Assembly: GCA_029563035.1 (NCBI GenBank)
Contig: JAKQTP010000237.1
Location: 1 to 9,117 of the forward strand
Direction of reading: 5' to 3'
DNA from: an archaeon
Lineage (GTDB): Archaea > Iainarchaeota > Iainarchaeia > CSSED10-239
Length of the DNA stretch: 9,117 nt
Position 1 is the first letter of the stretch. Each line of letters opens with the position of its first letter. The translations under genes were made by a program, and so were the position numbers. Positions 1 through 8,612 of the stretch are shown here, piece after piece. A model generated the notes under the pieces. It made no database searches. It was not told the origin of the DNA and was given only the letters and a program-made list of their open reading frames with translations.

Positions 1-1185
1 AGCCCTTTTAAGATCAGGATCTTGATGTTGCACTACATCATGGGGCGTGGTTATCACCGGTAAGTCTGGTTCAATCCCGATATTTTCTAGAGGACTGCCG
101 TTATTGCGTTGCATTCTCCAGGTAGCTACATTTAAGGTAAAGTTTCTTTTTCCTAGATGTATGTTAAAAGATTTAGGATTACCCGAACCTCCGCCAGTGG
201 TTTGACCGACAGTAATAGCTCGGTTTGTATCTTTCAACATCATAATAAACATTTCATTAGAACTTAAACATTTTGGCCCGGTTAAGATAACTAGTTTTTT
301 ATCTAGATAATCGCCCCGAGGTTGAAGATAGAAATTTTCACTTATCAGGGTATTATGTCCCGGTTCTCTTATAAAAGCCGTTCCATAGGCCACTGGTTGA
401 GTTATGAAATGGCCAGCTAGTTTTTCAGCTAGTTGACTATCTCCGCCACCATTGTTTCTAACATCTATGATTAAAGACTTAGCAGAAGTAAGAAGTCTTA
501 AATTATCTTCTACTAGGTCGGAAATATTTTTACCATCAATATTAACGCGGTTAGACCAACTGTCAATTTTTAAATAGCCAGTGTCTTCATCTAACATTTT
601 ACTATCAACGAATTCTTCTTTTGCTAAAGATGGAGCGATTTCTTTTGTATTGACATAATTAATTTTTAAATTAAAAGTTTGGTTTTCTTCATTTTTAACT
701 TTCAGAACTGCCGTATGGGCAAAGTCAGACATTAATACATGTAAGGCTCCATTGATTTTATAGTCTATTGTTCCGCCACCGAATTCTTTTATTTTTTGAT
801 GGATTAAGTCGTTAATATCTAGACCATTGATGTTGATAATCTCTAATATCTGGTTATCATTTTCTACCCAATATTTACCAGCTTTATAAAAAATAGGTTT
901 TTCTGGGTAATAGGCGTCTTTCTTTTCTTCTTTTAATAATGTGTGGGTGTTTTCTAGGCTAGCTAAAATTAATTTAATATTGTTTATAATATCAGTGGCC
1001 GAATAATTATCATCATTGAGTAATGCATCAAATTTATCTTCCAGCATCGTTTTCTCATCGTCGGTTGTAAAGGGGAAGGTTTCTAGCACTGATTTTTTGA
1101 CAGTTATAATGAAGTCAAGACATTCTTGTCTTTCAGTCTCTATTGTATTGATTGGTTGTTCAATTCTTGGGGTGGGTTGTTTCAT
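1..1185 (-). CDS. S41-family serine peptidase (non-Ctp type), 3' end outside window
   Basis: This is the first 395 codons of an S41 peptidase; the frame is still open at base 1. It has no signal peptide or membrane segment, so it is probably cytoplasmic. A helical N-terminal region ends in LENTHTLL (His81), which matches the conserved His position of tricorn/IRBP-like S41 enzymes. The core motif DVRNNGGG is at 241-248. The nucleophile is most likely Ser308 in LSSNE (308-311), and GIEPD lies near the C-terminal end. The Lys that CtpA/Tsp enzymes use is absent: the aligned GQTTGGGSG stretch (327-335) has Gly there. No PDZ domain is evident. The start at 1185 is set by a TAATG overlap with the stop of the upstream subtilase fragment, which implies coupled translation in the original operon. 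The last codons (HDVVQHQDPDLKRA) resemble the usual S41 C-terminus, so only a short tail is probably missing. Family assignment is strong; the substrate is unknown. Confidence 0.88.
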   Translation of the reverse strand, partial: MKQPTPRIEQPINTIETERQECLDFIITVKKSVLETFPFTTDDEKTMLEDKFDALLNDDNYSATDIINNIKLILASLENTHTLLKEEKKDAYYPEKPIFYKAGKYWVENDNQILEIININGLDINDLIHQKIKEFGGGTIDYKINGALHVLMSDFAHTAVLKVKNEENQTFNLKINYVNTKEIAPSLAKEEFVDSKMLDEDTGYLKIDSWSNRVNIDGKNISDLVEDNLRLLTSAKSLIIDVRNNGGGDSQLAEKLAGHFITQPVAYGTAFIREPGHNTLISENFYLQPRGDYLDKKLVILTGPKCLSSNEMFIMMLKDTNRAITVGQTTGGGSGNPKSFNIHLGKRNFTLNVATWRMQRNNGSPLENIGIEPDLPVITTPHDVVQHQDPDLKRA

Positions 1186-1382
1186 TAATTTTTCGTTTTT
1201 TCTTTTACTAATTCAATAATACCTTCTGGATTTACAATTTTCAACCCCTTGTTATTTACTACTGCACTTTTTTTTATAATTTCTGCAATTTCTTCTTTTT
1301 GAAGGTTTGGGTTTATCTGTAAGGCCAGGGCAAAAAGCCCAGCAAGATAGGGGACTGACCAACTCATTCCGCCCTTTCCGTA
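1185..1382 (-). pseudogene. S8 subtilisin-like protease, C-terminal fragment with the catalytic Ser
   Basis: These 65 codons encode YGKGGMSWSVPYLAG followed by a helical tail and a TAA stop. GMSWSVP corresponds to the GTSMATP catalytic-serine motif of subtilases; the serine codon is 1362-1364. The Asp and His parts of the active site are missing here and lie in the fragment at 7713-8612. In S8 relatives I recall, a stretch like SRTTASP..Y.FY.GG.SW precedes this motif, so the N-terminal piece ending QYMY and this piece starting YGKGG fit end to end, giving about 365 residues with Ser at about 307. An ATG at 1403 opens this frame a few codons further upstream, but those codons come from transposase-derived DNA. 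On its own this piece cannot be an active protease. It ends in a 1-nt TAATG overlap with the S41 gene. Confidence 0.85.
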
Positions 1383-1401
1383 AATCCTTGTTATCAACCG
1401 C
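1382..1401 (-). other. 20-base transposase-derived segment at the insertion seam
   Basis: Reading the minus strand, the seam between transposase and subtilase contains GCGGTTGATAACAAGGATTT. In the transposase frame it encodes AVDNKDL directly after LKEY. In related transposases, as I recall them, a stretch like this sits between NHKN and the TQFQRAM motif, exactly where this transposase is short by about 20 bases. The segment therefore appears displaced by about 180 bases in the same orientation. Confidence 0.45.
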
Positions 1402-2242
1402 ATATTCTTTTAAAAAAATATTAGCACTATCAATATCTGAGATATTGGCCAATCTTAATTCATTAACCAGTCTATCCTGTAATGTTCTATTCATTCTCTC
1501 TACTCTGCCTTTAGCCTGGGGGCTATTCGCGTTAATTACCTGAACCCCTAATTGCTTCATGGCTCTTTGAAACTGAGTCATTATTTTTATGATTAATTTT
1601 GTAAGTGCTAAATTTATCTAGATATATTGCTAGGGGTAATCCGTGTTTTTTGAAATAATCTAGCCAAAAATTAAATACAGCTATGACGCCCTCGTTAACG
1701 TCAAAAATAGCGTAAGTAATTTTACCGGTGGCATCATCAACTGATAACAGTAGGCAATATTCTTTATCTCCGAACCAAATATGATAACAACCATCAAATT
1801 GTTGCATTTCTCCATAACTATCTTTTCTGGCCCTATATTTATACTTATTTTTACATTGCTTTCTTGGCTTCGGAGTCCAGATACCTATAGTTATCATTAT
1901 TTGTCTAATTGTTTCTTTTCCGACTTTTATTTGGTGAATTTCTTCTAGTTTTTCCTGGGCAAAACTTGGTCCACAAAAACTATACTTGTTTTTTAAAAGA
2001 TCTTTTATTTTTTTAATTTCTTGACGGTTTATTTTGTTATTACTTTCTCTACCCCTATTCTTATGAATTACTCCTTCAACGCCTCTGATTATTACCTCTT
2101 TCTTGATTCTCTGAACTTGTCTAATACTTAAATTTGTTTGCTTGGCAGCGTCATCGGCTTTAATTGCCCGATTGATTAAATTTTGGATAATATCATATCT
2201 TGATAATTCCTCTCGAGTCATACTTATCATTTTTTGTGACAT
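1402..2242 (-). pseudogene. IS1202/ISNCY-type DDE transposase, frameshifted and truncated
   Basis: The first frame (2242 to about 1580) encodes an N-terminal helix-turn-helix region (residues about 10-60, with REELSRYDIIQ and SIRQVQRI), then a Lys/Arg-rich linker and an RNase H-fold integrase core. The core shows QQFDG (Asp150) and YLDKFSTYK (Asp209). The second frame (1581 to 1402) continues with TQFQRAMKQLGV and ANSPQAKGRVERMNRTLQDR, whose Glu in GRVER completes the DDE triad. The switch occurs after NHKN, where a few residues normally present are missing. The first frame therefore ends in non-homologous residues, and the second has only an accidental ATG at 1581. The C-terminal part after LKEY is gone. 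No functional transposase can be made without frame correction. DDE-family assignment is firm; the subfamily name is from memory. Confidence 0.85.
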
Positions 2243-2301
2243 AAATTTAATAATTAATTATTAATTAATTGAATTAAACTTTATATCACAAATTGTTAAA
2301 G

Positions 2302-2340
2302 TATGACATTTCTACTTGGCTAGACTATGACATTATCACA
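2302..2340 (-). repeat. IS terminal region with paired AATGTCATA repeats
   Basis: On the minus strand the end reads TGTGATAATGTCATAG, and AATGTCATA recurs 24 bases later, before ACTTTAACA. These are probably the transposase binding sites at the transposase-proximal end. The sequence outside the end (2341-2361) is unusually G/C-rich for this window and separates the IS from the PH-domain gene stop by 21 bases. Confidence 0.55.
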
Positions 2341-2361
2341 TGGGCGCGACAGACGCTTATC

Positions 2362-3684
2362 TTAATTATTACCATTAATTAAACTATTGAAATCTTCCTT
2401 CCAATCCTCTAATGAAGTATGGAAAACCCGACCAATAAAAAGTTGACGAAGTAATTTTAATTCTGGAATCTTAGTTATGGCTATTTTATACTTTAAATAT
2501 TCTGGTTTTTCTAATTCTTCATCTTTAATATATATTGGTTCTCTTCTAAAATTTATAGCTAACATACAATGATTAAATTTTTTAATTAAATCATCAATAT
2601 TTTTATCTTTCATCATTTTAAATAAATAAGTGGCTTTGCCTCCGCCTTCAATAGTAGATCCTGTTTCCATAACTAAAAATTTATGACCGGATTTAGAACT
2701 AATAGGAATAAGTAACCACAAATATTCTCCAGTCATATCTCCCATTAAATCTCTTTTGATACCAATAAAAAAATTATCAATAGTAGATAATGTTTTTAAA
2801 TATTGATAAGATTCTAAAATACCTATTTTATTCAATTTTTGTTCCAAATTTAACCAAATTTGTGATGAAATTTCATCAAGTTTATTTTTACTTATTGCTC
2901 GTCCATCTTTTAAAAGTTCGCTAACTTTTTTAATAGTTAAAGGATTAAAATCTGGTAAAAATTCTTTTAAAAGTTCTTGAGTTTTTAATGACAATTCGGC
3001 TAAAGTTTCCTTAATAATTTTATTTAAGCTATCAAATTTTTCTCCAAAAGAAAATAATGATATTGAAGCATTATCAGTAATAATAGAAATTTTATAATCT
3101 TTTTCAGAAAATTGATTAATTTCACTATAGGGTATTCTAACAAGATCACCTCGTTCTGGTTTTATTACTATTCCAGTATCACAAATTTCAACCATAGCCT
3201 CTCCTGAACATTCTTTATTTAATTCTTGATAATTATAATTACCTTTAAATCCAGTTTTTATAACTTTTTCTTTCATTAACAGATCTTGTTGAATTATTTC
3301 ATGACGAATTTTTGTAAAAGCTTTAATAAAATCATCATTTTCATAACCAAGTTCAGAAATAATTAATTTACCTTCAGAAAATAATAAATTGATTTTGTAA
3401 TCTTGATCCCAAAAATCAATAATATCTCTTAAAAAAATTAGTGTGGCCTTACCACTTTCCGCTAAAACAGATAATTTTTCTTCATCTAAAATAAATCTAG
3501 CTTGATTAGATTCAATCTCTATTTCATGTTTATCAATTAAAACAAATTTTCCATTAGTTTTAAAAATAATATCTGGTTTCTTTTTTTTCTTATTAACATC
3601 CTTCTTAAAATCAATATTACTCGCTTTATTAACAACTTCATTTGAAGATTCTTGATTTATTTGTTGATTATTTTTTTGTTTCAT
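2362..3684 (-). CDS. Protein with two tandem PH-like domains, last gene of the cargo operon
   Basis: This is a 440-residue protein with no signal peptide or membrane helix. The first 38 residues are polar and end in a Lys run (32-36), so they are probably disordered. Two similar beta-rich modules follow, at about 60-130 (ARFILDEEKLSVL..LRDIIDF) and about 160-232 (GEAMVEICDTGIVIK..IPYSEINQF). Each has the pattern of a PH/GRAM-like barrel ending in an amphipathic helix. An alpha-helical linker (232-300) leads to a C-terminal domain (300-440) containing TGSTIEGGGKATYLF (341-355), whose family I do not recognise. Tandem PH-like modules usually bind lipids or proteins, so a role at the membrane with its operon partners is plausible but inferred. 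It starts 7 bases after the EF-Tu-like gene. No terminator follows; the IS end is 21 bases beyond the stop, so the original 3' end of the operon may be lost. Confidence 0.8.
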   Translation of the reverse strand: MKQKNNQQINQESSNEVVNKASNIDFKKDVNKKKKKPDIIFKTNGKFVLIDKHEIEIESNQARFILDEEKLSVLAESGKATLIFLRDIIDFWDQDYKINLLFSEGKLIISELGYENDDFIKAFTKIRHEIIQQDLLMKEKVIKTGFKGNYNYQELNKECSGEAMVEICDTGIVIKPERGDLVRIPYSEINQFSEKDYKISIITDNASISLFSFGEKFDSLNKIIKETLAELSLKTQELLKEFLPDFNPLTIKKVSELLKDGRAISKNKLDEISSQIWLNLEQKLNKIGILESYQYLKTLSTIDNFFIGIKRDLMGDMTGEYLWLLIPISSKSGHKFLVMETGSTIEGGGKATYLFKMMKDKNIDDLIKKFNHCMLAINFRREPIYIKDEELEKPEYLKYKIAITKIPELKLLRQLFIGRVFHTSLEDWKEDFNSLINGNN

Positions 3685-3691
3685 AATTAAT

Positions 3692-3967
3692 TTATTCTTT
3701 AAAAATTATCTCTTTATTAATATTTTTGGCTATAATTTTTTCAGCCATTTCTGGTAAAATTATTCCTAATTGCTCGGCAAATTTTTCTCCTTCTTTAATT
3801 TCTTCTATTTTTTTATTAAGAATTTCCAAACCTAATAAAGGAATATTGGTTTTGTCTATTTTTAATGTCATTCCCGATTTTAAAACTCCACTTTTAAGAC
3901 AACCAAAAATAACCAATCCTTTATTCATAACCTTAAATATGGTTTTTGGTACAAAAACCCCTTGCAT
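3692..3967 (-). CDS. Orphan EF-Tu domain-2-like beta-barrel protein
   Basis: A 91-residue protein that reads as an isolated copy of the second domain of translational GTPases. VFVPKTIFKVMNKGLVIFGCL (3-23) gives the first strands. SGVLKSGMTLKI (26-37) matches the SGxLkvGdxv motif of EF-Tu/IF2 domain 2. LGLEILNKKIEEIKEGE (46-62) corresponds to the I..IE......a.aGd stretch, and EQLGIILPEM to the vGi.L stretch. There is no P-loop, NKxD motif or other GTPase domain in it or its neighbours, so it is not an elongation factor. The conserved fold may serve as a protein-binding barrel within the operon product complex; that is inference. It lies 12 bases after the zinc protein stop and 7 bases before the PH-like gene, so it is co-transcribed. 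The start is the only ATG near the 5' end of the frame and has no Shine-Dalgarno. Confidence 0.7.
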   Translation of the reverse strand: MQGVFVPKTIFKVMNKGLVIFGCLKSGVLKSGMTLKIDKTNIPLLGLEILNKKIEEIKEGEKFAEQLGIILPEMAEKIIAKNINKEIIFKE

Positions 3968-3979
3968 ATATTTTTATAT

Positions 3980-4648
3980 TTATTTTTTTAAATTGTCTCC
4001 GCAATTACCACAAAATTTTATTCCAGTTAAATTTTTCGCACCACATTTTTTACATGTGATAAATTTTAAAGAAGTACCACAATTAACACAGAATTTACCA
4101 GTTCCGGCTGGCTTACCACAAGAAGGACAAATAGTTTGTTTGCCTTCTATTTCTCCAGTAAAAACCGAAGTCATACTAGTTTTAGCTGTAATATCAGCTG
4201 ATCTTTTTTTAGCTCGAGCAGCTGCTATTTCAATTGCTTCCCTTGGAGCACAACTAACACATAAATTTTCTTGCTCATTCCAACAATTTTCACAAACCCA
4301 TTGGGTACATTTTGGACAACGATGAAAATGAGCTTTAGTTTCAACTTGAGCTTCTTCAAAAGCAATATCATGTTCTTTGCGCCAAGCTGGAGACATTTCA
4401 CCGAAACTTTCACTAATTACATCAGCTCCTCTTTCTACTCCATAGCCCACACTATACTTACCGGCTATTTGTGAAGCTGCCCCTATAATTCCTCCGATAG
4501 TTTTAAATACTCCTTTCTTTTTGTAGGTTTTAGAAGGAATAAATTTTGTTTTATAACCTTCACCGCAAACAGCACAATTAAAAGTAAATTGAAATCCAGC
4601 CTCAGTGCTGTTATCAATATAATTATCAGTAAATGGTTGAAGCGCCAT
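3980..4648 (-). CDS. Cysteine-rich zinc-binding protein with C-terminal double zinc ribbon
   Basis: A 222-residue soluble protein. The N-terminal part (6-70) carries FTDNYIDNSTEAGFQFTF, then CAVC (25-28) and a glycine-rich amphipathic segment (47-70). I recall this start from other bacterial zinc-ribbon proteins of unknown function. The middle (109-133) has CPKC, CENC and CVSC in close order with a Trp/His-rich context, like a treble-clef or RING-type zinc site. The C-terminus (174-216) has CPSC, CVNC, CKKC and CGNC, a classic double zinc ribbon. In total there are sixteen Cys in eight CxxC pairs. A helical Ala/Arg-rich linker (136-153) separates the two zinc regions. It sits between the DUF4870-like gene (42-base gap) and the EF-Tu-like gene (12-base gap). 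It is probably an adaptor or scaffold; nothing indicates DNA-binding specificity or an enzyme. Confidence 0.85.
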   Translation of the reverse strand: MALQPFTDNYIDNSTEAGFQFTFNCAVCGEGYKTKFIPSKTYKKKGVFKTIGGIIGAASQIAGKYSVGYGVERGADVISESFGEMSPAWRKEHDIAFEEAQVETKAHFHRCPKCTQWVCENCWNEQENLCVSCAPREAIEIAAARAKKRSADITAKTSMTSVFTGEIEGKQTICPSCGKPAGTGKFCVNCGTSLKFITCKKCGAKNLTGIKFCGNCGDNLKK

Positions 4649-4690
4649 ATATTTTTTATTAAATTAAATTTTATTAATCACGACCTTTAA

Positions 4691-5071
4691 TTAAAATTTA
4701 AATTGTTCCCCAAATTTTCCAATAATTGGTAATGGTTTTTGTTCTCCTTTAGCGGCACTCATAATTCCAATAATCATTAAAACAAAAACACCAAGATTTA
4801 AAATGGTTACAATTATACCTAATTGCCAAGGAAGAATCCAACTAATAATACTAATCAATATCCAACCAATAAAAATAAGTAATCCTTGTTTAACATGATA
4901 TTTTACAAAAGGATCATTTTTTGATTCTGTCAAAAGAGGAATGAAAAAAATAATATAAGCAACAATGGCCATGCCAGTATTTTTTTGATTCTTATCTTTT
5001 AAGGAATCTTTTTGATTTTGATTTGACGATGAATTATCTTGGTTTTGATTTGGCAATTTTTCTTCGTTCAT
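4691..5071 (-). CDS. DUF4870/Tic20-like small integral membrane protein
   Basis: A 126-residue protein. The first 32 residues are highly polar (Asn/Gln/Lys/Ser) and probably cytoplasmic. Three hydrophobic segments follow at about 34-47, 63-80 and 84-106. The short stretch between the first two contains FVKYHVKQGLLI, matching the F.r.HakQaL motif of DUF4870/Tic20-like proteins. The C-terminal tail (107-126) is again polar and ends GKFGEQFKF. Members are widespread with no settled biochemical role; some have been compared with the Tic20 translocon subunit, but no transport function can be claimed here. The gene lies 21 bases after the zinc-ribbon frame and 42 bases before the second zinc protein, so it belongs to the operon. 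The A/T-rich leader before its ATG has no Shine-Dalgarno. Confidence 0.8.
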   Translation of the reverse strand: MNEEKLPNQNQDNSSSNQNQKDSLKDKNQKNTGMAIVAYIIFFIPLLTESKNDPFVKYHVKQGLLIFIGWILISIISWILPWQLGIIVTILNLGVFVLMIIGIMSAAKGEQKPLPIIGKFGEQFKF

Positions 5072-5092
5072 AGATTTTAAATTAAATATTAA

Positions 5093-5557
5093 TTATTTTT
5101 CCTTTTTTAAAGGTTTATTACATTTAATACAATTATCACCAATTGGAGGCTGTTCTTGACCACAGGAAGGACATTTAACTAAAAGTCGTTCACCGCAATC
5201 CTCGCAATGATCACCAAAAAAAGTTATCTTTTCACAATAGGGACAAACAATTCTCAAACTTTGATTACATTTAGCGCAAACCTTCCAATCTTTTTCTATT
5301 GGTTCATGACATCGAGGACAACGCTCAGGACCTAAAGGATTTGTTTTTTCACAAAACGGACAAGTGATTGAATTAGGTGGAATTAATTTTTCGCAATATT
5401 TACAAGAATGTTTATAGCCAACAATCGGTTTATTAGCTTCTTTAGTCCCTGTTCCTGATTGAAAACCAGCGTTTTCTATTTTTTTTTTACTGAGAAAGCC
5501 AAATAACCAGGTATAACTATTCCAACTACTGGTACAATAATTAAAATTCCTAACCAA
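5093..5557 (-). CDS. Four-zinc-ribbon reading frame, probably the -1 frame extension of the PPC-DUF5684 gene
   Basis: The frame encodes eight CxxC knuckles (counting from a TTG at 5557: 52/55, 66/69, 80/83, 94/97, 105/108, 118/121, 129/132, 143/146), which is two double-zinc-ribbon modules, ending in a Lys-rich tail. There is no ATG anywhere in the frame. The only conventional start is that TTG, 82 bases inside the upstream membrane-protein gene, and the first 26 residues it yields are a shadow of that gene. Between 5479 and the first Cys there is no ATG, GTG or TTG. The upstream gene stops at TAG (5476-5478) right after ten A residues. A -1 slip on that run would read on as KKKIENAGFQSG into these ribbons, adding 128 residues for a fusion of about 601. 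Zinc binding is firmly supported; independent translation is doubtful. Confidence 0.75.
   Translation of the reverse strand: MVRNFNYCTSSWNSYTWLFGFLSKKKIENAGFQSGTGTKEANKPIVGYKHSCKYCEKLIPPNSITCPFCEKTNPLGPERCPRCHEPIEKDWKVCAKCNQSLRIVCPYCEKITFFGDHCEDCGERLLVKCPSCGQEQPPIGDNCIKCNKPLKKEK
5476..5491 (-). other. A10 slippery run and stop at the membrane-protein/zinc-ribbon junction
   Basis: The minus strand reads AGT, ten A residues (5488-5479), then TAG. In frame this is GTA AAA AAA AAA TAG (V K K K stop). One base back it is AGT AAA AAA AAA ATA GAA, the zinc-ribbon frame. Runs of nine or more A residues support polymerase slippage and -1 ribosomal slippage in bacteria. A missing A in the assembly would give the same picture: eleven A residues would make a single continuous gene. 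Confidence 0.5.
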
Positions 5558-6897
5558 TTTGGTTTATTTACTCTTTCAGCTATTTTCATCCAAAGAATAA
5601 TGCCAATAATAATATTAACTATTGGGATAAGAAGTAAAATAAACCACCATAAAGGTTTTTGAGCAATTTGAAGAAGAAGAAAAATATTAGCTACAGGAAT
5701 CCAAGCTAACCAACCATTAGGTATATTTGTCTTTTTGGCTAGTGCTTGAAGACAAATAGCTAAATAGATATAGAAAACCAATGCTAATATTAAATATAGA
5801 GCTGCCCACTTCCAAAATGATTTAAAAAAAGAAAAGGAATCTGATTGATAAGGAAATTTATCCATTAATCCTGGAACAATTGAACCTACTTCTAATCCTG
5901 TATCTTCCTCATCAAACTCGTCTAGATCTCCACCAATAATACCTTCACAATTTTCATCACAATCTGAATTTTCATAACAAGTTTTAGCATTCTCTTTTTG
6001 ACAATCTTCTAAAGTAGAGTATTCTCCAACAAATTGACAATAATCATCTTGACAAGCATAAAATTTATTTAAAGAATCTGATGTTTTTATACTTAAATCA
6101 TAATCAAAAGCTATAGCAGAATTATCATAATTATTTCCTTTTATTGTTAAAAAAACATTAGTATTGGTTACTGGGGTTAAAAACATGGAAACAACAGCCC
6201 CATCGTTTGAAGAATAGGCTGAATCTAATAATTCTCTTTTTTGATTTAATAATTCCACATCCGCTACACCATCAGTGGGTGGCGAAACTTTAAATTCATA
6301 AGTTACTCCTTTTTTAACTGAAATTTTATAATAATCAACATTATCAGTTCCATAACTATTCATATATTCGGCTGCTAAATGACCCTGATAATCTCCTAAA
6401 GTAACATCTAAGGCATTATTAAATGTATCACCGGCATCTGTTTTAGAATCGGCATCATAATAATCAGACAAAGAAACTTCTAAAGCAAAAGGATCTAATT
6501 CCGAAAAAATATCATTATATATTTTAAGATAATATGTATAATTATCTTTTGTTGAGTTAGGAAGCCAAATATTTTCATATTTTGCACCAACTGAATATCC
6601 ATTTTCATCACCTAAAACTTCTTGATCAGCATTATAAAGAGTTATACCAATATAACCACTCCATCTAATTTTTACTAATTGACCAGCTTTTCCAGAAAAA
6701 GAATAAAAAGAGGTCTCTCCCTCTCCAAATGATCCAACTTGATAAGTTCCAGGTTGAATTGCTGTAGCAGTTTCAAAACTATCTCCACCTGCTGTTAAAT
6801 TTTGAGCATTTACTGAATTAGCACCCACAAAAATAAAAGCTAATCCGATCAGAATTACTAAAAAATTAATTTTTTTAAAGATTTTATTATTATTCAT
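5476..6897 (-). CDS. Signal-peptide protein with two PPC-like domains and a C-terminal DUF5684 membrane region
   Basis: This is the first gene of the operon, 473 residues. A basic N-terminus and hydrophobic segment (about 10-26), then VNAQN, form a signal peptide with a likely cut near residue 31. Two beta-sandwich modules of the bacterial pre-peptidase C-terminal (PPC) type follow at about 36-145 and 150-270; both show D(S/T)F..A..... and a later YY.. strand pattern (for example TSFYSF and VDYYKI). Next is a small region with six Cys (282-317) and an acidic stretch (324-337). The end (about 358-470) matches DUF5684: four hydrophobic helices with PNGWLAWIPVANIFLLL, KPLWWFILLLIPIVNI and WMKIAERVNKPNWLGIL. 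The PPC part should lie outside the membrane, with only the end reaching the cytoplasm. No peptidase domain is present. The stop directly follows an A10 run (see the frameshift entry). A promoter lies about 58 bases upstream of the start. Confidence 0.88.
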   Translation of the reverse strand: MNNNKIFKKINFLVILIGLAFIFVGANSVNAQNLTAGGDSFETATAIQPGTYQVGSFGEGETSFYSFSGKAGQLVKIRWSGYIGITLYNADQEVLGDENGYSVGAKYENIWLPNSTKDNYTYYLKIYNDIFSELDPFALEVSLSDYYDADSKTDAGDTFNNALDVTLGDYQGHLAAEYMNSYGTDNVDYYKISVKKGVTYEFKVSPPTDGVADVELLNQKRELLDSAYSSNDGAVVSMFLTPVTNTNVFLTIKGNNYDNSAIAFDYDLSIKTSDSLNKFYACQDDYCQFVGEYSTLEDCQKENAKTCYENSDCDENCEGIIGGDLDEFDEEDTGLEVGSIVPGLMDKFPYQSDSFSFFKSFWKWAALYLILALVFYIYLAICLQALAKKTNIPNGWLAWIPVANIFLLLQIAQKPLWWFILLLIPIVNIIIGIILWMKIAERVNKPNWLGILIIVPVVGIVIPGYLAFSVKKK

Positions 6898-6954
6898 AAA
6901 TTTTAATTTATTATTTAAAAACGCTATTAGTTTAATAATTCGACCTTTGCTGAT

Positions 6955-6983
6955 ATTATAGCACTATAAAAAAATTGAGTAAA
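6955..6983 (-). promoter_or_regulatory. Sigma-70-type promoter of the PPC/zinc-ribbon operon
   Basis: The minus strand shows TTTACT (6983-6978), a 17-base spacer and a perfect TATAAT (6960-6955). A transcript would start near 6948, giving an A/T-rich leader of about 50 bases before the ATG at 6897, with no Shine-Dalgarno. It lies downstream of the NYN terminator, so the operon is transcribed separately from the NYN gene. Confidence 0.6.
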
Positions 6984-7052
6984 TATTAGCCAAATTTATA
7001 AACCCTTGCTTTTTTAACTTACCTATGTTATATTAATAATAGAATTTCTATT

Positions 7053-7095
7053 AAAAAGCACCTCTTAAAGTTTTGTCTTTAAGTGGTGCTTTTTT
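7053..7095 (-). terminator. Strong hairpin terminator overlapping the NYN stop codon
   Basis: Two arms, 7053-7070 and 7077-7094, pair over 18 positions with a single mismatch around a six-base loop. The arms begin and end in A5/T5 runs, giving a U tract on the minus-strand transcript after the stem (7057-7053). The upstream arm, in transcription order, encodes the last NYN residues (KSTT) and the TAA stop. The T run on the other strand makes the hairpin potentially bidirectional. Confidence 0.85.
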
Positions 7096-7591
7096 CTTTG
7101 GCTATATATTCAAGCTTATTTCTTAAGTTATCCATAAACACTATTTTCTCTTTAGCAGTCTTCTTTAATAATTTTGAACAGTTTTTTACATCCGGACTAA
7201 TAACTCTGGATAATTTTCCTTGTTCATATAGATATTTAACTAAACAATAAAAATCACCATCACTAGACACAATAACTGCTTGATCAAAATTATTTAATTC
7301 TATCATTGTTTGTAACACTAAATCAGCATCAACATTTCCTTTTGGTTGCCCTTCGCCATTGAGTAAAACCGGTTTAAAAATTAATATATAACCATCTTTT
7401 TGTAAAGAAGAATATAAATCTTGATTTTCTGGAATAAATCCAATAAACAAAAATGCTCGAGAAACTTCATATTTCTCTTTTAAATAAATACGAAACCTTT
7501 TAAAATCAAGTTTCCAATTTAATTTGTTAATGCCAAGATTTAAATTTTGACTATCAATAAAGGCATAATTATTTTTAGTATTTTTGTCCAT
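7079..7591 (-). CDS. NYN (LabA/DUF88-type PIN-like) domain protein
   Basis: A single-domain protein of 170 residues (175 if the ATG at 7606 is used; numbers below count from there). NYAFIDSQNL (14-22) carries the first acidic residue, Asp18. PKGNVDADLVL (88-98) holds Asp93/Asp95. AVIVSSDGDFYCLV (110-123) holds Asp116/Asp118, the hallmark of NYN domains, followed by SRVISP (133-138). These acidic residues form the metal site of PIN-like nucleases, so an RNA- or nucleic-acid-cleaving role is expected; the target is unknown. There are no added LOTUS/OST-HTH domains. I prefer the ATG at 7591 because the -10 box TATAAT (7605-7610) overlaps the ATG at 7606, so a transcript would begin near 7598 with almost no leader. 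The gene ends inside its own terminator and is separate from the following operon. Confidence 0.88.
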   Translation of the reverse strand: MDKNTKNNYAFIDSQNLNLGINKLNWKLDFKRFRIYLKEKYEVSRAFLFIGFIPENQDLYSSLQKDGYILIFKPVLLNGEGQPKGNVDADLVLQTMIELNNFDQAVIVSSDGDFYCLVKYLYEQGKLSRVISPDVKNCSKLLKKTAKEKIVFMDNLRNKLEYIAKEKSTT

Positions 7592-7604
7592 ATAAAAATA
7601 TATC

Positions 7605-7632
7605 ATTATAACAATATTACCATCTATATAAA
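7605..7632 (-). promoter_or_regulatory. Promoter of the NYN gene, nearly leaderless
   Basis: TTTATA (7632-7627), a 16-base spacer and a perfect TATAAT (7610-7605) on the minus strand. The -10 box overlaps the first possible ATG (7606), so the next ATG (7591) would be used with a leader of only a few bases. Confidence 0.5.
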
Positions 7633-7706
7633 GACTTATATATTTTATATAATTATCTAGTCCTAAAAAATAATTTATAAATTTAAAACATTATTAATTT
7701 AATAAT

Positions 7707-8612
7707 TCAACTATACATATATTGACCTTTTTTACTCCATGAAGATGCCATAGTACGGTAATCAGATGGAACAATTATTTTAGTTTCTTTGATACTTTTT
7801 AATATCTCATCAATATTGTCTTCAGTAATAAGTTTATCTAGTTCTTCTTCGTCATCATTGTGATGTAACCAAGGACGATAACTTTCGAAGTCGTCTTTAT
7901 TTTCTGGGCTCCCCCCACCAGTAAAATTAATATCAATTTTATCGCCCCCAACATCTATAACAAAAATTCCCGCCTCTTGTGCTTTTTGTATTGTCTTAAT
8001 CCATTTATCCAGCCCTGGTTCTGGGTTGTCTGTCATATAGCCAATGGAACAGCTAACAATTCTAACTTGTTCGTTTTGTGGAATATGTTTATTGTTTTCG
8101 ATGATGTCATTTAGGGCCTTAGACCAACCATAAAAATAATGGTCCGATGGCACGGCCTTATAAACTAATTTAGCTCCAGGTGCTACACCGCAATCTTTCC
8201 CAACCAGCAAACTTGTTACGGCTGGTCCATGCATACTTATTGGTTCATTTTTTGCTTCGTCGTATTCTTGATAATCAGAAATAGAATCTTTATATTCTGG
8301 ATGATTTATATCCAGTTTCTGATCAATAATAGCCACAACAATCCCTTGCCCAGTGATTCCCTGCTCATGTAATTTTTTAATTCCAAGTCCAGGGTTTTTG
8401 CTTTTCTTTAAAAGTTTTTTTGGGTTAAAGCCATTTGGCAATTTATCTTTTTCTGGCCATATAGTTTCTGTGTCAAAATCTACGGTTTGTAAGACTTCAA
8501 TGGGTATTTTTGAAAGATTTTGGTCGGATAAATCTTTATTTCTTAAATCTTCAAAACGAGAAATTTGCATTCTTTGTTCCTGACTATGTTCAATTTTTTC
8601 AAAATTTTTCAT
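7707..8612 (-). pseudogene. S8 subtilisin-like protease, N-terminal fragment with catalytic Asp and His
   Basis: 300 native codons, then AGT and TGA from foreign sequence. The N-terminal 85 residues (LRNKDLS..NLSKIPIEVL, then NPGLGIKKLHEQGITGQG) lead into the protease domain. VVAIIDQKL gives Asp97 and SMHGPAVTSLL gives His128; CGVAPGAKLVY (141-151) follows. VRIVSCSIGYM (183-193) is the substrate-strand region. Where most subtilases have the oxyanion Asn in AGN, this protein has VGGD (221-224). As I recall, close relatives also lack that Asn, so this is probably a family trait rather than damage. The frame breaks after SDYRTMASSWSKKGQYMY (283-300), just before the catalytic-Ser segment found at 1382-1185. 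There is no signal peptide, so the intact enzyme would have been cytoplasmic. The truncated product should be proteolytically inactive, but an intact promoter could still express it. Confidence 0.88.

Follow-up and report, generated by a model that had tools for sequence, protein, structure and literature searches.

The 9,117-nt contig JAKQTP010000237.1 (assembly GCA_029563035.1), the whole of which is called the window here, carries a gene for an S8 peptidase (subtilase) that is split into two pieces by an insert of 6330 bp (1382-7711, minus strand, by the seam coordinates). Both pieces lie on the minus strand and in gene order in the list of open reading frames (ORFs). The N-terminal piece covers 8612-7712, with its ORF continuing to a stop at 7707 and ending in YMYS, and the C-terminal piece covers 1381-1185 and sits within a 72-aa frame that has an ATG at 1403, just within the insert. 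The Pfam Peptidase_S8 profile matched the N piece at E 2.3e-11 (profile positions 1-149 of 288) and the 72-aa frame at E 0.0056 (positions 238-274), the latter under the curated cut-off, and the pieces together cover both ends of the profile. Read from the right, the insert holds a NYN gene, a run of six frames (6897-2362) and a broken transposase gene.

The initial annotation had proposed a single S8 gene in two pieces of the same strand and order, which would yield about 365 residues when joined, and had advised looking for relatives with an uninterrupted gene; such a relative was found. P0001, a protein of 365 aa with 20 member sequences, is uninterrupted and 98% identical, and is composed of residues 1-300 of the N piece, N301 and the 64-aa C piece (its residues 302-365, preceded in the window by part of codon 301), with neither gap nor duplication. 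The joined window pieces have the same length and differ from it by 6 substitutions in 364 compared positions, the seam residue being left out, and together with the exact abutment described below P0001 bears out the single-gene proposal. The profile (PF00082) matched P0001 at E 8.1e-15 in two stretches, and covered positions 1-274 of 288 in another relative, P0008. Asp97, His128 and Ser307 (in GGMSWS), which we take to be the catalytic triad from familiar motifs, lie within one chain in P0001; in the window, Asp97 and His128 are in the N piece, as first annotated, and the Ser motif is in the C piece, so that no single chain holds the triad. With Asp and His in one piece and Ser alone in the other, the protease is probably lost.

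With the N piece alone as query, 342 proteins were retrieved, and the best 120 of the 342 were examined as relatives. In 115 of these the chain also includes the catalytic-Ser motif, and 95 have Asn at the seam residue, the latter by a loose pattern. Organism names were attached to 9 of the best 120 (six Patescibacteria-type, two 'bacterium' and one Nanoarchaeota), the closest named one being P0008 of Parcubacteria group bacterium ADurb.Bin016. Searches for the subtilase gave 2 matches at E 1e-60 in 383 genomes of one class, and 1 match in 4 genomes of the family of G002; all were too distant to represent the species of the window. Compared with Patescibacteria S8 subtilases such as P0008, the window protein is nearly identical outside a linker of variable length (short in P0001 and the window, longer in P0003-P0008) and shares the catalytic motifs, and what sets the window copy apart is the 6330-bp interruption of codon 301. 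An origin of the pieces from two paralogues was rejected, as a single protein was matched by both pieces over its full length. Among otherwise near-identical proteins, the loop at residues 157-163 (window ~8144-8124) is swapped as a block (DHYFYGW, DHYFYGG or GRCFYSR), and other substitutions are mixed between alleles as if recombined.

The position of the break was resolved by DNA of more distant relatives. In two loci, L001 and L011, the seam falls on an AAC codon; the sequences there are ATGTATAAC and ATGTACAAC, respectively, each followed by GGA, and the window reads ATGTATA, then the insert, then ACGGAAAGG. Because this places the seam inside one AAC codon, the halves abut with no base lost or duplicated; one base of uncertainty is left, as an A meets on both sides. 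The C piece had been described as starting with YGKGGMSWS, of which the Ser motif holds, but the initial Tyr belongs to a codon (1382-1380) that straddles the seam and encodes Asn in the intact gene. No target duplication was found by comparison with the relatives' DNA, and neither inverted repeats at the insert termini nor a direct or core repeat at the seams rose above chance, since 679 and 1227 of 3000 random pairs, respectively, scored as high.

A second truncation on the N side was found in P0002, a protein of 301 aa that ends in YMYS, i.e. at the same residue and with the same extra Ser as the window N piece. The two differ at 8 of 301 residues, among them the loop 157-163, where P0002 resembles P0005-P0008. 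The extra Ser and the protein end suggest that the same bases follow as in the window. Five of the best 120 relatives have no Ser motif, and only P0002 among them ends at the seam; P0061 falls short of it by a few residues, and the C termini of P0068, P0086 and P0110 consist of other sequence. As P0002 is a different allele with the same stop, the truncation on the N side also occurs beyond this contig.

The C side of the insert consists of a remnant of an ISNCY/IS1202-type insertion sequence (IS) at 1382-2351 (minus strand), delimited by comparison with 11 copies in 10 genomes, with its upstream tip at 2351 and its downstream end missing. Its transposase gene (1402-2242, minus strand) has lost 20 nt at 1582/1583, which splits it into two frames, and it is truncated after FLKEY. 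Transposase-family membership was established for the N fragment, which matched the NCBIfam model transpos_ISNCY_2 (NF033594) at E 3.5e-55 with 187.7 bits against a curated cut-off of 250 meant for whole proteins, while the relative P0126 scored 377 bits; the N part is 59% identical to the ISNCY-named P0123. The 11 copies came from a search of 383 genomes of one class with a threshold of E 1e-30. Nine of them have open frames of 434-455 aa, and 10 of the 11 loci have a downstream IS end with TAGAAATGTC-like motifs by a loose pattern, for which the plus strand of the window gave no match where it was expected. The copy at L012 measures 1474 bp from tip to tip, and the window retains 970 bp of about this length, so that of the terminal inverted repeats TGT...ACA only the upstream tip is present. 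Past the point where the window copy stops, different sequence follows in all 11 copies. Since the seam is inside the transposase gene, the IS was not placed by a transposition ending at these seams.

Exactly 20 nt (1382-1401, minus strand) stand between the truncated transposase gene and the subtilase C piece, and comparison with L012 and L020 identified them as the piece missing from 1582/1583, ~180 nt away. The seven codons that join the two transposase parts are present in 11 of 11 copies, with the same residues as in the window in L012 and L020 and diverged ones in the other nine; at the nucleotide level, the displaced piece agrees at 18 of 20 positions with the segment still in place in L012 and L020, and at 9-17 with that of the others. 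It occurs once in the window. A 17/20 match in L013 lies outside the IS and was taken as chance, and as a match of that size occurs outside an IS in the same loci, a lone one could be fortuitous. Chance does not explain an 18/20 match that falls on identical codons in two copies when the window has its gap at precisely this point. Repeated strand switching in repair, or an assembler misordering short contigs, would each give such a displacement.

According to the passages of PMC10132070 on the IS1202 family, target duplications are 3-5, >15 or 0 bp by subgroup. Among the six relatives whose flanks were compared, direct repeats of 16 bp or little more flank the IS in L012 and L018, which fit the long-duplication group of those passages, and none were found in L014, L019, L020 and L022. 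The window copy shares with IS1202/ISNCY elements, as far as those passages of PMC10132070 describe them, the transposase family, the TGT tip and internal TAGAAATGTC-like motifs, but differs in having no downstream end, a broken frame and the displaced 20 nt.

The remaining insert genes, all on the minus strand, begin with an NYN-domain protein of the LabA-like nuclease family (7079-7606, Pfam NYN E 1.2e-13), 92% identical to a protein of genome G559. The operon follows with a DUF5684 membrane protein (5476-6897, Pfam E 1.2e-10) whose N terminus looks signal-like by eye, a double zinc-ribbon (DZR) frame (5093-5557) that is fused to the DUF5684 frame in relatives, a DUF4870 membrane protein (4691-5071, E 3.4e-6), a 222-aa double zinc-ribbon protein (3980-4648, Pfam DZR E 1.2e-7), a 91-aa protein with a weak EF-Tu domain 2-like Pfam match below cut-off (3692-3967), and, as last gene, a 440-aa protein of unknown function (2362-3684) with 56-57% identity in genome G682. 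The DUF5684 and zinc-ribbon frames meet at a run of ten A (5476-5557, minus strand); they form one ORF of 607-638 aa in P0243-P0245, and P0242 (476 aa, 80% identical) ends at the same place, so the junction may be a slippage site that is conserved, or the split may be common to both. A 54-nt direct repeat (6891-6944 and 7658-7711, 78% identical) occupies the AT-rich spacers upstream of the DUF5684 gene and the NYN gene, and its second copy ends exactly at the N-side seam.

The core order of DUF5684/zinc ribbon, 222-aa zinc-ribbon protein and 440-aa protein is kept in G682, with identities of 38% for the DUF5684 part, 78% for the zinc-ribbon part, 77% and 57%, respectively; the DUF4870 gene (69% identical) lies ~4.5 kb away from the other operon genes there. 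The core stands amid ordinary chromosomal genes, e.g. leucyl-tRNA synthetase-like and GreA-like ones, names that we presume from inspection of the sequences. The 440-aa protein was detected in 2 of 380 genomes, one by a weak partial match, and in the same 2 among 26 genomes of the order of G682. Given this chromosomal setting and this rarity, a rare chromosomal operon is likelier than transposon cargo, and the insert operon accordingly looks like a rare Patescibacteria chromosomal operon. The NYN gene was common, being found in 104 of 380 genomes at E 1e-15. When an 18-kb stretch of G559 was compared, DNA similarity was limited to this gene with its terminator (85% over 607 bases, window 6995-7601 versus L035 7829-8434) and stopped near the NYN start; in G559 the gene lies in a stretch of lower GC content at synonymous third codon positions (GC3), the other genes in view being near 0.5. 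With like DNA in unlike contexts, the NYN gene seems to move between distant Patescibacteria. PADLOC gave no hit for 7 of the 8 insert frames; the NYN protein hit a LabA-like NYN model (E 1.4e-9) and, weakly, two further models, which was insufficient, and a defence island was rejected.

The insert and its flanks differ in base composition. GC3 ranged from 0.082 to 0.151 in the seven insert frames and from 0.221 to 0.258 in the three subtilase and S41 peptidase pieces that flank them, so that each of the seven insert genes is below each of the three flanking pieces; the transposase pieces had 0.223 and 0.298. Pooled values were 174/1603 codons (0.109) for the insert, 178/735 (0.242) for the subtilase and S41 pieces and 64/268 for the transposase, and Fisher's test of insert versus flank gave p 4e-16, codons not being fully independent. 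Within one genome, 13 genes of the stretch L010 spanned 0.186-0.294. In our reading, the operon and the NYN gene stem from a background unlike that of the subtilase. In GC3 the transposase resembles the subtilase, but an IS may come from anywhere.

On balance, and by a modest measure, these sequences point to a real non-homologous insertion of foreign chromosomal DNA that would have inactivated the subtilase. A Patescibacterium subtilase gene would have been broken by ~6.3 kb of foreign bacterial chromosome carrying the NYN gene, the zinc-ribbon/DUF5684 operon and, right behind the operon, an IS1202-type IS inside which the donor DNA ended or broke. Each donor end would have been attached to one side of a single cut in codon 301, with no target duplication, by illegitimate recombination, e.g. 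with DNA taken up from outside, and the 20-nt displacement at the IS end would be a by-product of the joining. The exact split, the unlike composition, the truncated IS and the lack of element ends are shown by the sequences; we infer that a living genome contains the joint, that the DNA came from such a donor and that it arrived by uptake. The absence of a target duplication and arbitrary donor ends would fit illegitimate (non-homologous) insertion as generally conceived; the 20-nt shuffle at one seam is particular to the window. In the literature on illegitimate recombination and natural transformation, and on IS and chimeric contigs of Patescibacteria, no such event was apparent at the level of the listed records.

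The exact abutment, the truncation of P0002, the intact allele P0001, the GC3 contrast and the truncated IS all argue for this insertion, but several observations weigh against it. The C-side seam is scrambled, the 20-nt move exceeds what simple joining needs, and the seam lies inside a mobile repeat, the kind of place where assemblers misjoin. A chimeric contig would also show a change of composition, and in the stretch L035 of one genome 14 genes span GC3 values of 0.165-0.553; therefore a low-GC3 block can be resident, and composition alone is no proof of another organism. These points lend substance to the chief alternative, a misassembly in which DNA of two organisms from a single sample, one with an intact subtilase-S41 pair and the other with a low-GC operon and an intact IS, was joined through the IS, an explanation that we consider a serious contender although short of probable. 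It would account for the GC3 mismatch, the 20-nt scramble in the IS, the seam in a mobile repeat and the existence of the intact allele with its 20 member sequences. In addition, a 473-aa insert protein is found on 10 contigs, the window's own protein being in the same cluster and the longest contig measuring 21.3 kb, and therefore the insert may have another home. Against misassembly, two wrong joins must have struck exactly the same subtilase bond, and P0002, a different allele, repeats the N-side truncation. The initial annotation had held a real insertion to be the best reading; it is still favoured, by the exact abutment and P0002, but it is unproven, as the 20-nt displacement and the GC3 contrast fit a misassembly too.

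Its further suggestion of a cargo-bearing element did not hold, in view of the lack of element ends, target duplication and an intact recombinase, and of the chromosomal place of the operon core in G682. A composite or IS-carried transposon moved by its IS is quite unlikely. An IS1202-type IS does stand at one insert end, and the absent target duplication is not decisive, as none was seen in 4 of the 6 relatives with both flanks compared; but the C-side cut is inside the transposase gene, the N side showed no IS end, no terminal repeat exceeded chance, and the frames scanned contained no second transposase. With element ends not present at both seams and no intact transposase or recombinase among the insert frames scanned, a cargo transposon was rejected. 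It is very improbable, too, that a larger element or a whole IS inserted and was afterwards stripped of its ends and middle by deletions, which would make the present seams secondary; the IS runs in the same direction as the subtilase, and the end that it lacks, the downstream one, is that next to the subtilase, as such deletions would have it, but an exact abutment of the subtilase halves is not expected from them. A programmed excisable element or group I/II intron, removed to restore the gene, can practically be dismissed and was rejected, for although an exact split without target duplication is as from introns, the only recombinase found is the broken transposase, no reverse transcriptase or homing nuclease was among the insert frames scanned, nothing in Rfam was matched at the gathering threshold and no direct or core repeat rose above chance.

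Beyond the split gene, the window contains an S41 peptidase gene of the C-terminal-processing type (1-1185, minus strand, Pfam Peptidase_S41 E 2e-25), which runs off the window end and shares one base with the end of the subtilase C piece; nine NCBIfam S41 models matched its frame, each below its cut-off. The recognisable genes are all on the minus strand, and plus-strand frames reach at most 199 aa (the longest at 3726-4325) and are antisense to genes or in the right-end spacer. At the level of megablast, the window had no match in plasmids or phages, and neither the subtilase N piece nor that of the transposase had a relative in viral_contigs; an origin from a plasmid or phage was rejected on this footing.

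Extended to the group, it is conceivable, if rather doubtful, that small-genome Patescibacteria integrate multi-kb DNA from other Patescibacteria through two non-homologous joins at one cut, without target duplication and with template-switch-like displacement of 20 nt, and that low-GC operons spread by such events and not by mobile elements. If the joint is real, the window would document to the base a case in which foreign chromosomal DNA entered a Patescibacterium with no mobile element involved, with seams that make the route testable; if it is a misassembly, it would mean that two seams in register are no proof of insertion in a metagenome contig. Under either reading, the protease in this copy is probably just lost.

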